Shown here piece after piece: positions 49,036-58,705 of a stretch of 64,000 nucleotides of DNA. A model generated the notes under the pieces. The model was not told the origin of the DNA. It made no database searches and was given only the letters and a program-made list of their open reading frames with translations. The stretch comes from Oscillospiraceae bacterium. Its GTDB lineage: Bacteria; Bacillota; Clostridia; Oscillospirales; Oscillospiraceae. The stretch is from positions 1 to 64,000 of the forward strand of contig JAAWNQ010000008.1 in the NCBI GenBank assembly GCA_022799035.1, written 5' to 3'. How positions within the stretch are numbered: the stretch's first letter is position 1; every line of letters begins with the position of its first letter. The position numbers were made by a program, and so were the translations under genes.

Positions 49036-49365
49036 TCATTCGTTGCAAAGGGAAAGGGTCAGGATAGCCAGAAACTCCGAGGGAGAAGGCGGTTTTGACA
49101 GGGGCCTGCGGGCTAAATTTTCCAGTAGATGAGGATCGTGTTTCCAAGCGATATTGATGACGGTGCGAATATTTCTCTCTACCGCAGTCCAGGTGGTTTT
49201 ATACTGCTTGGCTACGTTGGGGTATAGAACCTTTGTGACCATCAGCAGTTTCTCGCGATGGACCAGGCATTGCTCCACAGCGGATGCTGAGTAGAAAAAG
49301 CCGGTGTAGTTTGCCGTTATACCTAACTGGTTCAAAAGGTTAAAAATCTTGGCCGAATGGTCCAT
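49036..49365 (-). CDS. Receiver-less Spo0A output-domain protein, copy 1
   Basis: The 109-residue product is only the DNA-binding (sigma-A-interacting) domain of Spo0A. It has LLNQLGITANYTGFFYSASA, LLMVTKVLYPNVAKQYKTTW, AVERNIRTVINIAW and PSPSEFLAILTL, matching the domain end to end. There is no receiver domain. The start at 49365 follows AGGAGGGATATCCAA. It overlaps the upstream HTH gene by 26 nt. It may bind 0A boxes constitutively and compete with or mimic Spo0A, which is inference. Confidence 0.85.
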   Translation of the reverse strand: MDHSAKIFNLLNQLGITANYTGFFYSASAVEQCLVHREKLLMVTKVLYPNVAKQYKTTWTAVERNIRTVINIAWKHDPHLLENLARRPLSKPPSPSEFLAILTLSLCNE

Positions 49366-49609
49366 TTGGATATCCCTCCTTGCCTGGGTCATCACTTTTT
49401 TGGTCTAACAATTCGGGACAGTTTTCCTGGATGGCCAAGATGATCTTATCAATGGTTCTTGCACGTGGATTGCCTGTTCCCATCCGGTACCGATATAGAT
49501 TTGAGAGTGTGACGTCAAAATCTAAAGCCATTTCCGTGCAGGTTTTCTTAGTTGCCATTTGATATGCCTGGATAAGCTTTGCGATATAGGACTCGACCGT
49601 TTTCGACAT
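49340..49609 (-). CDS. HTH protein paired with the Spo0A-like gene, copy 1
   Basis: An 89-residue protein. YIAKLIQAYQMATKKTCTEM and ALDFDVTLSNLYRYRMGTGN form a helix-turn-helix like XRE/Cro repressors, followed by RARTIDKIILAIQENCPELL. The start MSKTVES follows GAGGGG by about 8 nt. It overlaps the Spo0A-like gene by 26 nt. The same two-gene unit recurs at 52181-52775 with the same length and overlap. Confidence 0.75.
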   Translation of the reverse strand: MSKTVESYIAKLIQAYQMATKKTCTEMALDFDVTLSNLYRYRMGTGNPRARTIDKIILAIQENCPELLDQKSDDPGKEGYPNGPFGQDF

Positions 49610-49894
49610 AAGCATGCCCCTCTGTATCAATTATGACAAAAACGGTCCTTTCCTGGCAACTCATATATAGGAATTTGAAGTTTAGAAGATGATTTTTATA
49701 ATAAAAGTGAAGCCGCCCTTTTAGCGGAGCGGCTTTTCTGAGTGCAAATTCGTGTGCAATTTTGTCTTACGAAATGGGAATCAGCACCAAAAGATGTTGA
49801 TCGGTCCCATATTATAAATATATCATTATGGTCTCAAACACAGTGGGAATAAAAGAAAAATCCTGAAACCGTTGAGGTTTCAGGATTTTCTGTT
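49610..49894. other. AT-rich intergenic region left of the accessory island
   Basis: No gene seen. On the minus strand it holds the upstream region of the HTH gene; GACAAAAAC and CAACTCATATATAGGAATTT are also conserved upstream of copy 2. Further right are a GAAGCCGC-GCGGCTTTTC hairpin (about 49710-49740), a direct repeat GTGCAAATT / GTGCAATTT at 49742 and 49754 (like arm-site repeats near integration sites), and an AATCCTGAAACC / GGTTTCAGGATTT hairpin at 49858-49889. Confidence 0.45.
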
Positions 49895-49917
49895 TGGCGC
49901 AGTGGGGGAGATTGAAC
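49895..49917 (-). repeat. tRNA 3'-end-like fragment (possible att remnant)
   Basis: TGGCGCAGTGGG is identical to the 3' end of tRNA-Ser at 58483, and ATT-GAAC aligns with its T-loop. The rest of a tRNA is absent. Both copies point the same way, as expected for the two ends of an element inserted at the tRNA 3' end. Confidence 0.45.
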
Positions 49918-50019
49918 TTTGTCACCACGCTGCATATCACCCTATACCTGATGGGTGGAGACCGCATGGCCATCTCCCTTCCACTGGAGGTGAAAACCAC
50001 CTATGAAGCCAAGTTCTAA
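49918..50019 (+). pseudogene. 3' remnant of a coding sequence
   Basis: An open frame without a start runs from the tRNA-like fragment to a TAA. It reads FVTTLHITLYLMGGDRMAIS, then a 13-residue tail. The frame looks like the end of a longer gene cut at the putative att site. A GGAGGTG inside it serves the next gene. Confidence 0.35.
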
Positions 50020-50629
50020 ACTATGCTGTCTTTGGTGGCAGCTGAAGATAAACCCCTTTGTCAGCGCTACGCTGGTCGGGTGGTTTCTATTCTCGCCCCT
50101 ATATTTTTTCTTGGGGGAGAGCATATTCTTGGCCATCCTGGTTTTATGGGGAATGCAGTGGGCCATCCTGGAGCACGTGGCACCGAAGGGATATCCCCGC
50201 CGCTCCACACGTCTGCTGACGCCAAATTTCTTTGCCGTTCGGGATCTTACCGGAGGGTGGAGGATCTTCCAGCGGAGTCCCGGGGAGATAGGGGACTGCC
50301 AGGTACTGCTGAAGGGGCTGCTGAAGGATCAGATCCGGCTTCCGGAGGCCTTGCTTCCGGGATGTTACCGGACATTGACTCATGAGACGATCCTGGGGCG
50401 GCTCCGGCGGTTGCCTAATGTGGAGATCCAATCCTGCCGACAGGCCTATGTGGCTACGATGGAGGCAACGGTATCCCGGGCGGTGAAGGGGCGGTGTTGC
50501 TGCTGTACGGACGGGTGCCCCTTCCTTGGGCGGAGCCATCCGCGCCAGTTTTATGACGTCCGCTTTTTGGTCAAAAAGAAAGCCGCCCCGAAGGCGGCAG
50601 GATTTGACAAAGGACAAATGTTGTCGTAG
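50003..50629 (+). CDS. Hypothetical membrane protein of the accessory island
   Basis: A 208-residue protein with hydrophobic segments near 20-38 and 40-58 (SATLVGWFLFSPLYFFLGES). A basic soluble region follows with a cysteine cluster (RCCCCTDGC). No family recognised. ATG at 50003 has GGAGGTG 12 nt upstream. Its stop lies within the -10 box of the toxin promoter. Confidence 0.5.
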   Translation: MKPSSKLCCLWWQLKINPFVSATLVGWFLFSPLYFFLGESIFLAILVLWGMQWAILEHVAPKGYPRRSTRLLTPNFFAVRDLTGGWRIFQRSPGEIGDCQVLLKGLLKDQIRLPEALLPGCYRTLTHETILGRLRRLPNVEIQSCRQAYVATMEATVSRAVKGRCCCCTDGCPFLGRSHPRQFYDVRFLVKKKAAPKAAGFDKGQMLS

Positions 50630-52163: not shown

Positions 52164-52199
52164 AAAGGGGCTCACAGCTTTTAGCTGTGGACCTCTTTG
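52164..52199. terminator. Terminator between the small membrane protein and cassette 2
   Basis: AAAGGGGCTCACAGCT-TTT-AGCTGTGGACCTCTTT imperfect hairpin covering the last codons of the minus-strand Spo0A-like gene. Confidence 0.6.
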
Positions 52200-52531
52200 C
52201 TGTTTTCAGAGCATAGGGCCAGTGTCAGGATGGCCAGGAGCTCGGAGGGAGAGGGCCGCTTCGTCAATGGCCTGTGGGCCAATTTCTCCAATGGCTGACG
52301 GTTGCGCTTCCAAACGATATTGATGACGGTACGGATATCTCTCTCCACGGCCTTCCAGGTGGTTTTATACTGCCTGGCGATACCGGGATAGAGATCCTTT
52401 GTGACCATCAGTAGCTTTTCCCTGTAGCCCAGGCATTGTTCCACGGCGGCGGCTATGTAGAAAAAGCCTGTGTAGTTTGCTGTTATGCCTAAATGGCTTA
52501 ACAGGTCAAGGATCTGAGTGGAAGGCTCCAT
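52181..52531 (-). CDS. Receiver-less Spo0A output-domain protein, copy 2
   Basis: A 116-residue paralogue of the protein at 49036. LLSHLGITANYTGFFYIAAA, LLMVTKDLYPGIARQYKTTW, AVERDIRTVINIVW and PSPSELLAILTLAL again cover the whole Spo0A DNA-binding domain, with an extra ENSKEVHS tail. It differs from copy 1 at scattered positions, keeping the helices, so both are likely functional. It overlaps the HTH gene by 26 nt, as in copy 1. Confidence 0.85.
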   Translation of the reverse strand: MEPSTQILDLLSHLGITANYTGFFYIAAAVEQCLGYREKLLMVTKDLYPGIARQYKTTWKAVERDIRTVINIVWKRNRQPLEKLAHRPLTKRPSPSELLAILTLALCSENSKEVHS

Positions 52532-52775
52532 TCAGCGATCCCTCCTTGTCGGTGCTATCTCTTTTTTGCTCCAACAATCCAGGACAGTTCTCTTGGACGG
52601 CGGAGATGATCTTGTCAATGGTTCTCGCTCGTGGATTCCCTTTTCCTGTCCGGTAGCGGTATAGATTGGAGAGTGTGACGTCAAAATCCAAAGCCATTTC
52701 TGTGCAGGTTTTGTTGGTCACCCTTTGATACTCCTGGATAAGCTCTGCGATAAAAGATTCAACAGTTTTCGACAT
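52506..52775 (-). CDS. HTH protein paired with the Spo0A-like gene, copy 2
   Basis: 89 residues, the same length as copy 1: CTEMALDFDVTLSNLYRYRT and RARTIDKIISAVQENCPGLL are shared, and the C-terminal 15 residues differ. The ATG-TCG-AAA start creates TGTCGAA, the core of a 0A box, on the coding strand in both copies. Upstream sequence down to the AACTCATATATAGGAATTT segment is also shared. Confidence 0.75.
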   Translation of the reverse strand: MSKTVESFIAELIQEYQRVTNKTCTEMALDFDVTLSNLYRYRTGKGNPRARTIDKIISAVQENCPGLLEQKRDSTDKEGSLNGAFHSDP

Positions 52776-52939
52776 AAGCATACCCCTCTGTATCAATTAT
52801 GACAAAAACAGAATCTCCTTTGCAACTCATATATAGGAATTTTGCCAGCTGATTTTATTTCCGTTGGTTGCCATCGGGTATGTTGTAGATCTCTTTTCAA
52901 ACGGGGAAATATGTCGTATAATGATGGAGGTGAAATGAA

Positions 52940-55409: not shown

Positions 55410-56060
55410 ATGGCCTTGGAGAACAAGTTGGGGATCACGGACTCCGCCGAGCTGGCCCGGGTGGAGGAGCAGATCAGCAAGAAGAAGGCGGTAGCGCTGT
55501 TTGAGAGCGGCCGCTTGGACGAGCTGACGGCCGGCTCCTTTCATGCTCTGGCTGAGATCCACAGATACCTCTTTGAGGACATATATGATTTTGCGGGAAA
55601 GGTGCGGGATGTGAACCTGGCCAAGGGCAGCTTCCGCTTTGCCCCGGTCATGTACCTGCAGGCCGCCCTGGAGCACATCGAGGCCATGCCACAGGCTACC
55701 TTTGACCAGATCGTTGAAAAGTATGTGGAGATGAACATAGCCCACCCCTTCCGGGAGGGCAACGGCCGCAGCACCCGGATCTGGCTGGACATGATCCTGA
55801 AGCAGGAGCTCCACCAGGTGGTGGACTGGAGCCGGGTGGACAAGGACGATTATCTCCTGGCTATGGAGCGCAGCCCTATCAAGGACGTGGAGATTAAGCA
55901 CCTCCTGCAGGCTTGTCTGACTGGTCAGGTTGCGGATCAAATGCTTTATATGAAGGGGATAGACGCCAGCTATCACTATGAAGGGTATACCGCCTTCAAG
56001 GCGGAGGAGCTGTCCTCCTTGGCCGCGGAGGAAGAGGAGACAGAGGAACAAGAGCCGTGA
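55410..56060 (+). CDS. fic: Fic-family protein adenylyltransferase
   Basis: A 216-residue Fic protein. The catalytic motif HPFREGNGRSTR is at 112-123, with the flap region GSFRFAPVMYLQAAL before it. The Fic fold begins at ELTAGSFHALAEIHRYLFED. It transfers AMP to a hydroxyl on a target protein. The C-terminal stretch SYHYEGYTAFKAEELS may carry regulation; no separate antitoxin gene lies beside it. Targets of related proteins include DNA gyrase and topoisomerase IV, but here the target is unknown. It has its own promoter and terminator. GGAAAGGAGTTGG precedes the ATG. Confidence 0.9.
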   Translation: MALENKLGITDSAELARVEEQISKKKAVALFESGRLDELTAGSFHALAEIHRYLFEDIYDFAGKVRDVNLAKGSFRFAPVMYLQAALEHIEAMPQATFDQIVEKYVEMNIAHPFREGNGRSTRIWLDMILKQELHQVVDWSRVDKDDYLLAMERSPIKDVEIKHLLQACLTGQVADQMLYMKGIDASYHYEGYTAFKAEELSSLAAEEEETEEQEP

Positions 56061-56222: not shown

Positions 56223-56972
56223 ATGTCAAATCGCAGATACCACTCTACATTTAGAATACCGAATCAGCTTATCCTGGATCAGAGTCTCAGCTTTAGCGCC
56301 CGCCGTCTGGGTGCCGTCCTGTATAGCCGCCGCAATCCTCTGGGCTGCTGCAGGAAGTCCCTGGCCAAGCTGGCCGAGCTGTCCTCGCTGTCGGTGACAA
56401 CCACCCGAAAAGCCTTAGAAGAGCTCTCCGCCGCCGGCTACATCGCCCACATCCACACCTATCGGTACGACCAGTACCTGGGCCGCATGGTCTACGCTGT
56501 CGGCGTTTACCAGTGTCTTCTCTCAACGGCCAAGGATTTTACCTCGGTTCCTTGGAAGATCTTTGACGCCCCCATGACCGGCGGCTCCTTCGCGGCGGCT
56601 CTGTACCTGTACCTCCAGGTCGGAAACCGTTCTCGCTGCTTTCCCAGCCTGGCTGCCATCTGCCGGGGGATCGGTGCAAGTATGGCCACCGTTTGCCGGG
56701 CCAGGAGGATCCTGGACACCGTGCGCCTGTTTTGCATCCTGCAGTGCAAGAAGTGCAACAGGGTTTTCAGCAGCAACTCCTACCATGTCCTTCAGACGGC
56801 GGTGGTCGTGTGTGATGCCAGTCCGTCAGCACCGCAGCCTTCGCCACAGCTCCTTCGGGTGGCTCCTTTCCCTTGCCTCTTAAAGCATATCACCCAAAGC
56901 AGGGTATTTCAAGCCTTTTCTTCCCTTTGGGGTACTCTCAAAATTGGCAAACTACAATCATTACTTAGATAA
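56223..56972 (+). CDS. Replication-initiator-like HTH protein
   Basis: A 249-residue protein. FRIPNQLILDQSLSFSARRL and KSLAKLAELSSLSVTTTRKA then LEELSAAGYI form a winged helix. A second HTH-like region has FPSLAAICRGIGASMATVCR. This layout resembles initiator-type HTH proteins of plasmids and integrative elements in clostridia. The C-terminal 40 residues look out of character and may reflect a shifted or replaced end. AAGGAGGGAAAAG precedes the ATG. Confidence 0.6.
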   Translation: MSNRRYHSTFRIPNQLILDQSLSFSARRLGAVLYSRRNPLGCCRKSLAKLAELSSLSVTTTRKALEELSAAGYIAHIHTYRYDQYLGRMVYAVGVYQCLLSTAKDFTSVPWKIFDAPMTGGSFAAALYLYLQVGNRSRCFPSLAAICRGIGASMATVCRARRILDTVRLFCILQCKKCNRVFSSNSYHVLQTAVVVCDASPSAPQPSPQLLRVAPFPCLLKHITQSRVFQAFSSLWGTLKIGKLQSLLR

Positions 56973-57150: not shown

Positions 57151-57914
57151 ATTTTATCAATCCCACTCTTTTTCATAATGCTATCAACAACAGCATTTAG
57201 TATGTACGGCTCATTAATCTCAAGTGTTTTTGAACGAAATTGTTCCAGACTTTCATAACTCATAAGCGGCTCCCAAATGTCGCCATGTGGATCAGTAACA
57301 ACTTGGTTGTACTTTTGCCCTTCTCCGCAGTGGCAACAGATATTGGAAAAATAGCCTCGCCTGTTTTTCCTAATAGTAAGAAATTCCTTTGCAAGAAGTA
57401 CATCAAGAGCGGGTATATCCCCAACTCCGATTTCATCTCCATATTGCTTAAAAAAGGGAATAAATTCCGCCAGATCATGAAGTAGGTAATAGGAATGCAC
57501 CCTCGTACTTTTACCGCAATACTCACAATCCATATCCCAGGAGTAAATATTCACATCATACTTTGCGATGATTTTTTTAATAAATTCTCTGATGGATAAG
57601 GTGCTTCTACATCCATTCTTGGGGAAGTTTGAGCAGCCCACAAATATAGATTGTCCTTTCCAGCGTTCCACATAGTAACCATTACAACGCTCGCAGTCTA
57701 TTTTGTGCCGGGGAACATTGTTTTTGTGAGTTGGGGACATAACCTTACGTTGCGTTGTGTCTTGGCCCTTTAGTACTTGTAGCGTCGGAGGCTGCGGTTC
57801 ATCATCCGACTTCTTCCCCTGTTGTAGCAGAAACCAAATAATAAATACCCAAAGTCCAAGGTTAAGTATAACGAAAGCCACAAAGTATGCCCAGTCGGCA
57901 ATCCCCCAATTCAT
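57147..57914 (-). CDS. Membrane-anchored zinc-ribbon protein
   Basis: A 255-residue protein. One TM helix (about 7-29) is followed by a topoisomerase-type zinc ribbon (CERCNGYYVERWKGQSIFVG, CSNFPKNGC). Two more Cys pairs are CEYC and CCHC. The topoisomerase-like ribbon suggests nucleic-acid or protein binding at the membrane. ATG at 57914 follows GAGGGAGAGG. The AT-rich codon use differs from the core genome, so it was probably acquired. Confidence 0.65.
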   Translation of the reverse strand: MNWGIADWAYFVAFVILNLGLWVFIIWFLLQQGKKSDDEPQPPTLQVLKGQDTTQRKVMSPTHKNNVPRHKIDCERCNGYYVERWKGQSIFVGCSNFPKNGCRSTLSIREFIKKIIAKYDVNIYSWDMDCEYCGKSTRVHSYYLLHDLAEFIPFFKQYGDEIGVGDIPALDVLLAKEFLTIRKNRRGYFSNICCHCGEGQKYNQVVTDPHGDIWEPLMSYESLEQFRSKTLEINEPYILNAVVDSIMKKSGIDKI

Positions 57915-57940
57915 ATTTTCCTCTCCCTCAACCAAAAAAT

Positions 57941-57969
57941 TTGACAACCCAAATTCCTGGTGTTATACT
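57941..57969 (+). promoter_or_regulatory. Promoter of the large structured RNA
   Basis: TTGACA, a 17-nt spacer and TATACT. It points away from the zinc-ribbon gene into a 500-nt region without plus-strand genes. Confidence 0.75.
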
Positions 57970-57975
57970 GACCAT

Positions 57976-58478
57976 GTATCGTTGTACCCAACGATATAAG
58001 TTGACCCCGCTTCTGTTGCACCAGAAGCGGGGTCATAGAGGACTTTGAAAAATATGTGCCAAGCCCTCCCAAACGGGTTACGATAGACGCCTAACTGCGT
58101 AGGCACATCAGACTGATCAACCGATAGGAAACCGTCGTGGTGGCCGAAAGGCTACTGAGAGCCGGCTCCACACAAGCCGGGTAAGACGTTCGCATTCTGC
58201 GATCGCAGCAAGGAACAGGTGGTCCCTGTTCAACTCCATGACAGCGACGGTATAATGCTACTCCCTGTGGCCATGGCTGGTGTTGTCGTAGCACTTCACG
58301 CCGTGGATGGGCGCCCAATTCAAACGGGCGGGCCGGAAGGATCGTGCCTTCTTTGAAAAGACATTCAGGCCGTGAAATGCTCTTAACCGGAGCAGTAGGT
58401 TGACCGGTGATAAGCTGAATTTGAAAGGTGAACGGGTGCCCAGCTTCCTTGTATAAGCTGGGCATCCGTTTGCCCTTC
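57976..58478 (+). ncRNA. Candidate large structured non-coding RNA next to tRNA-Ser
   Basis: About 500 nt without a credible gene, behind a consensus promoter and closed by a strong hairpin (ACGGGTGCCCAGCTT 58432-58446 with AAGCTGGGCATCCGT 58455-58469). Stems seen by eye include TATCGTTG/CAACGATA (57977-57996), a perfect 14-bp stem TGACCCCGCTTCTG/CAGAAGCGGGGTCA (58002-58035), ATGTGCC/GGCACAT closing 58054-58108 with an ACGC/GCGT stem inside, a GCC-GAAA-GGC tetraloop (58143-58152), and CCGGCT/AGCCGG (58162-58180). Large size, GC-rich multistem structure and tRNA adjacency recall the GOLLD and ROOL classes; I cannot assign a family. It is not RNase P, tmRNA, SRP or 6S RNA by their signature sequences. 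Confidence 0.6.
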
Positions 58479-58482
58479 ATTC

Positions 58483-58574
58483 TGGCGCAGTGGGAGGGAT
58501 TCGAACCCTCGGGCCGCTTTTGACGGCCACACGATTTCCAATCGTGCTCGTTATGACCACTTCGATACCACTGC
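58483..58574 (-). tRNA. tRNA-Ser (anticodon GGA)
   Basis: 92 nt with encoded CCA. The acceptor GCAGTGG pairs with CCACTGC. The anticodon stem-loop is CACGA-TTGGAAA-TCGTG, with anticodon GGA. A long variable arm, as in class II tRNAs, and T-arm GAGGG-TTCGAAT-CCCTC complete it. It reads UCC and UCU. Its 3' end borders the large RNA and may be the attachment site of the accessory island. Confidence 0.95.
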
Positions 58575-58705
58575 AAGTTATAAAAACTGTGCCAGTTAAC
58601 CTGGACAGCAAAAATTATTATACCAGATTTTTAGGATTCGTCAAGCCCTCGGAATGAAAAAAGCTGATTTAGAAACAACTTTTTTGCAGTGGAGCGAAGA
58701 AGCTA

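Follow-up and report, generated by a model that had tools for sequence, protein, structure and literature searches.

The window analysed here (the whole 64-kb stretch of DNA) contains, beside tRNA-Ser(GGA), a locus that sequence comparison shows to be a mobile, structured, noncoding RNA gene (Table 1). We favour, with some reserve, the view that its product is a free-standing noncoding RNA of ~500 nt, located at the tRNA-side end of integrative elements that carry an HTH_36 gene, and that it acts as RNA in trans for the element.

Promoter, extent and fold of the RNA gene

The start of the gene is inferred from the promoter and its end from the 3' hairpin. The promoter reported in the initial annotation is confirmed: it agrees with the consensus at 11 of 12 positions, and the pattern TTGACA-17-TATACT with at most one mismatch has its sole occurrence in the 64 kb at this site (0.06 expected). 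The homologues described below have AT-rich promoter-like boxes at the equivalent position.

The same annotation envisaged a multistem RNA of ~500 nt with a perfect 14-bp stem, and this description holds. The minimum free energy is -216.6 kcal/mol, compared with a mean of -167.1 for shuffled sequences (z = -8.1; 0 of 100 dinucleotide shuffles as good), and the single-sequence folds of three homologues score z = -3.1 to -4.1. The perfect stem (P1) has a counterpart in all homologues, a long hairpin of different sequence. A GNRA tetraloop had also been pointed out; it is present (GAAA, 58146-58149, on a 7-bp stem) but is not conserved in the homologues. As to the terminator hairpin, described earlier as 15 bp long, a hairpin does occur at the 3' end; however, the tail that follows it is T-poor (CTTCATTCTG), hence its identification as a terminator is probable rather than certain. 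Open reading frames overlap the region, yet none runs uninterrupted through the core of all four homologues, in agreement with the earlier statement that it holds no plausible gene.

Table 1. Features of the RNA locus and of its homologues (window coordinates unless a genome is named).
Feature	Coordinates	Strand	Details
Sigma-70-type promoter, TTGACA-17-TATACT	57941-57969	+	TTGACA 57941-57946, 17-nt spacer, TATACT 57964-57969
Structured RNA gene, ~500 nt	57976-58475	+	Fold, homologues, covariation
P1, 5' hairpin, 14-bp perfect stem	58002-58035	+	TGACCCCGCTTCTG 58002-58015 pairs with 58022-58035
P3 helix	58054-58108	+	AUGUGCC 58054-58060 with GGCACAU 58102-58108; RNAalifold helix
P4, long-range helix closing the core	58112-58408	+	~58112-58121 with 58398-58408
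P4b junction, encloses P5 to P8	58132-58250	+	CCGUCG 58132-58137 with CGACGG 58245-58250
3' domain, P9 (CUACU/AGUAG) around P10-P14	58258-58398	+	Conserved stretches AAUGCUACUCCCU and GACAUUCAGGCCGUGAA
3' hairpin adjoining tRNA, probable terminator	58427-58474	+	20 pairs including G-U; not homologous between copies
Host tRNA-Ser(GGA)	58483-58574	-	3' end is the integration site
Candidate distal att	49895-49917	+	Copy of tRNA-Ser 3' end; 24-column match, 87.5%; E 0.018 in a 58-kb search
HTH_36 replication-initiator-like gene	56223-56972	+	Common to all four RNA-bearing islands
Membrane protein gene	50003-50629	+	Common to window and G160 islands, same order, 41% identity
Intact RNA copy, G160	G160:C1 ~89.1-89.5 kb		Covariance models
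Intact RNA copies (two), G078	3.8399-3.8404 Mb; 1.3345-1.3349 Mb		Covariance models
Decayed RNA copy, G078	G078:C1:3804371-3804644		R2 and BLAST

Homologues and their distribution

Beyond the window, three intact copies and one decayed copy come from two complete genomes (G160 and G078) belonging to its family. BLAST across 400 genomes of that family gave two clear relatives. Covariance models of the 3' domain (R1) and of the 5' domain (R2) each recover the identical set of four intact copies. In wider searches, R1 reported the window's own copy alone against 295 genomes of the order, as did R2 against 313 genomes of the class. These counts make the RNA very rare, occurring in three species while at least 400 genomes of the family were covered, and within the reach of the searches it is restricted to that family. 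Weak model matches of 15-25 bits in other genomes are mainly short stretches and were excluded from these counts.

BLAST searches of phage and plasmid records with the RNA yielded no relatives; a 32-nt plasmid match lies in the flanking tRNA-Leu end and not in the RNA. Scans of IMG/VR with conserved motifs gave either no match or chance ones rejected by the covariance model. A single motif-pattern match among the genome contigs (L034) has no covariance-model match and was likewise dismissed as chance, and a 15-nt pattern taken from the 3' hairpin returned uninformative matches only.

Conserved structure and covariation

The collection of homologues, together with a test for covarying pairs, had been proposed as a check on the initial annotation, and its outcome is positive. 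P3 is replaced by ACGUAUC/GAUACGU in G160 and by ACGUACC/GGUACGU in G078, and P4 is rebuilt with different, compensated bases in every lineage. Within the 5' domain (P4b and P5-P8), standard pairs fill 96.9% of pair cells and double changes occur in 10 of 32 pairs, against 3.5 in shuffles; when the partner is slid, pairing falls to 34-38% (34-37% for a slide of one base). The 3' domain shows the same pairing and slide behaviour, more weakly and with fewer variable pairs. Its two conserved stretches (AAUGCUACUCCCU and GACAUUCAGGCCGUGAA) are nearly invariant among the copies, as would be expected for tertiary contacts or a candidate binding site.

RNAalifold, applied to the core of an alignment of four intact copies that amount to three independent lineages (a small sample for covariation), gave -93.7, whereas alignments with shuffled columns averaged -43.2 +/- 5.5 (z = -9.2; none of 200 as good), with a covariation term of z = +5.6. 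With the second G078 copy omitted, the remaining three sequences gave z = -10.4. The consensus structure is partly derived from the same sequences, a circularity that the slid and shuffled controls answer only in part. At the level of sequence comparison, homology and covariation settle that the window locus is a functional RNA.

Integration sites and islands

Every intact copy is convergent with a tRNA gene and points at its 3' end; the tRNA differs from copy to copy (Ser, Val, Gly and Leu). The tRNA is a host integration site and not part of an element-borne tRNA array, which gives the tRNA adjacency a different cause from that of the GOLLD and ROOL RNAs with which the initial annotation compared it. 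Nine sister species from the window's genus lack the RNA at their tRNA-Ser locus, which carries other DNA, and several have other insertions there. Several of the nine also possess, 2-12 kb from tRNA-Ser, a 23-bp att copy that is exact or nearly so, and two of those att-bearing species have, as read by eye, an integrase-like coding sequence beside the tRNA. The other DNA, the att copies and the integrase-like sequence together indicate that the site is an integration hotspot.

In the window, the candidate distal att, a weaker copy than those, adjoins a displaced canonical terminator, placed like the tRNA terminator in the genus species; on these grounds the comparison suggests an island of ~8.6 kb. 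This att copy is flanked by two paralogous small-gene pairs on the minus strand (49036-49630 and 52181-52796), each composed of an orphan Spo0A C-terminal DNA-binding domain and a 96-aa protein.

A perfect att pair was found in one island only, that at tRNA-Gly of G078, where the tRNA-Gly end recurs 36 kb away as a perfect 31-bp copy, directly after the decayed RNA and directly before an integrase-like fragment (assigned by eye; Pfam does not recognise it). The segment made up of the decayed RNA and ending at this 31-bp copy spans G078:C1:3804371-3804733. Tandem accretion is the best reading of this arrangement: related elements would have been added one beside another, each ending in the order RNA, hairpin, att. 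For the G160 island and the tRNA-Leu island of G078, no second att was found within ~120 kb. No intact integrase was found linked to the three intact copies other than that at tRNA-Gly of G078, so the elements may be decayed. In its genomic context, the RNA is evidently the cargo of a family of integrative elements.

A block 93% identical between the tRNA-Gly and tRNA-Leu copies of G078 starts inside a type-P5 twister ribozyme (66 bits; L069:18540-18594), which is located just 5' of a 119-aa ORF and of the tRNA-Gly RNA copy. The Rfam cspA thermoregulator was also matched (L068:8397-8853, minus strand; 88 bits, gathering score 78), possibly a spurious hit in such genomes.

Genes linked to the RNA

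The HTH_36 protein resembles phage replication initiators (PHROG 270/186). Its gene is found at all four loci in the orientation of the RNA, 1-28 kb upstream of it, and no relative occurs in 40 control stretches, 800 kb in all, taken from G078 and G160; as judged from gene neighbourhood, these counts show that it is linked to the RNA. Used as bait, HTH_36 detected no relatives in IMG/VR, phages or plasmids, nor did PcfJ in IMG/VR.

No protein gene directly beside the RNA is common to all copies. In G160, a PcfJ-like gene (L067:1335-3506) lies immediately upstream of the RNA and is transcribed toward it, and the same RNA-bearing island contains two long collagen-like genes with a GPTGPT repeat (L067:7133-10628). 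The window island includes a gene for a Fic/DOC-domain protein (55410-56060).

Possible roles of the RNA

If the RNA is indeed free-standing, it would be transcribed in the integrated state from its own promoter, and its body would act in trans for the element, as ROOL and GOLLD are thought to do. The most plausible role would be maintaining or packaging the circular form of the element; that of a messenger or an antisense RNA would be less so. More speculatively, and with clearly less confidence, this undescribed ornate RNA family of rare integrative elements could be essential to the element life cycle, for instance by self-assembling to protect or regulate the circle that replicates after excision.

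The main rival to a stand-alone RNA is a cis-acting leader for the integrase, which we consider unlikely. According to this explanation, the RNA and its terminator would gate integrase expression in the excised circle, where the promoter would face attP and int, by analogy with ICEclc, whose transcript table places the intB13 promoter, Pcirc, at position 102,729, a long way from intB13 (PMC2892462). The RNA is invariably directed at att, and beyond the decayed G078 copy, reading the same way, come att and the integrase-like fragment, although the orientation fits at this one junction only. However, a hairpin or terminator separates the RNA from att, three of the four intact copies are without a linked integrase, and a multi-junction RNA of 500 nt is much bigger than a leader requires.

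Less probable still is a replication-control RNA, counter-transcribed or setting the copy number of the element's replicon. Such a function would accord with the linkage of the HTH_36 initiator at every locus, with weak antisense-strand matches to ctRNA_pGA1 and with the case of the L. salivarius ROOL, a highly abundant RNA that has been treated jointly with a nearby HTH gene and whose level follows megaplasmid copy number (PMC5643018). Nonetheless, the ctRNA_pGA1 matches fall under the gathering score, RNA and initiator lie anywhere between 1 and 28 kb apart, and complementarity to the HTH_36 leader is not above shuffles at three of the four loci and is marginal in the window. Antisense pairing with the tRNA was rejected together with pairing to that leader, since apart from this one marginal match the complementarity is no greater than chance.

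The initial annotation suggested membership in the GOLLD or ROOL classes, which the covariance-model searches did not bear out. All 4227 Rfam 15 families were run with cmscan on both strands of the window, and at gathering score only tRNA was reported. When the filters were relaxed and E <= 10 allowed, 57900-58620 still matched none of the large RNA families, GOLLD and ROOL included, and none covered the RNA at the three homologous loci at E <= 1. Membership is thus not detectable, even though the mode of action may be similar. That the RNA is a highly divergent GOLLD or ROOL, past the sensitivity of the Rfam models, seems to us decidedly improbable: its size range (507-526 nt for the L. salivarius ROOL; PMC5643018), the mobile-element setting, the nearby tRNA and the ornate fold are alike, but the models fail to match at the above thresholds and phage or plasmid relatives were not found. 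An explanation by fortuitous stems in GC-rich intergenic DNA hardly deserves consideration, for although stems in a single GC-rich sequence come cheaply and terminator-like sites are near chance frequency (2 found, 1.2 expected), it is refuted by the homologues, the compensatory changes and the shuffle controls.

Comparison with known large RNAs and integrative elements

HEARO/OMEGA RNAs can be set aside, as there is no Rfam match and the neighbours encode a zinc-ribbon protein, HTH_36 and Fic, not proteins of IscB/TnpB type. Our literature search found no description of the RNA; supplementary candidate lists (e.g. PMC8040213) lay outside its scope, and the RNA may have been listed earlier as an unnamed candidate in such supplements.

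Pcirc of ICEclc is likewise a far-end promoter of an integrative element, directed toward att and the integrase (PMC2892462); in the present family att is faced throughout, and an integrase-like fragment at the one decayed G078 junction. The locus differs in the terminator-like hairpin that stands ahead of att. No folded 500-nt RNA is known at the Pcirc region of ICEclc. OLE is a chromosomal RNA. Like the present one it is ornate and large (~600 nt), and it is found in extremophiles and anaerobes of the Bacillota (PMC12054373); the window RNA has no match to its Rfam model.

GOLLD and ROOL, whose profiles (with that of OLE) were taken from Rfam in a recent study, occur close to tRNA islands in phages and prophages and form RNA-only cages (PMC12286853). 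The extensive multi-junction fold with covariation support, common to both, is present here. Their phage or prophage tRNA-island setting is not, as the tRNA is a host target and no phage, plasmid or IMG/VR relatives were found. GOLLD is likewise a big ornate mobile-element RNA adjoining tRNA genes, but is often longer than 800 nt (PMC12286853), compared with ~500 nt here, and its Rfam model does not match the window RNA. ROOL resembles the window RNA in size (~500-660 nt), multi-junction structure, residence on mobile elements, nearby tRNA genes and the lack of a known protein partner; it differs in that neither sequence nor structure matches, the tRNA beside the window RNA is a host gene serving as integration site, and phage relatives were not found.

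The proposal of a large multistem noncoding RNA, perhaps of a new class, where an accessory island borders a tRNA is supported by the homologues, the compensatory pairs and the lack of an Rfam match. Known large structured bacterial RNAs are a handful, with functions still open, and the window RNA adds one outside Rfam. Its fixed position at the att end and its linkage to a replication-initiator-like gene offer a concrete genetic context for probing the role of such RNAs, and it provides an independent example for the question of whether mobile elements have repeatedly come to carry RNA-only assemblies. Set against the systems above, it is best classed as a new RNA family of the large ornate mobile-element type, distinguished by its setting at the att end of its integrative elements.
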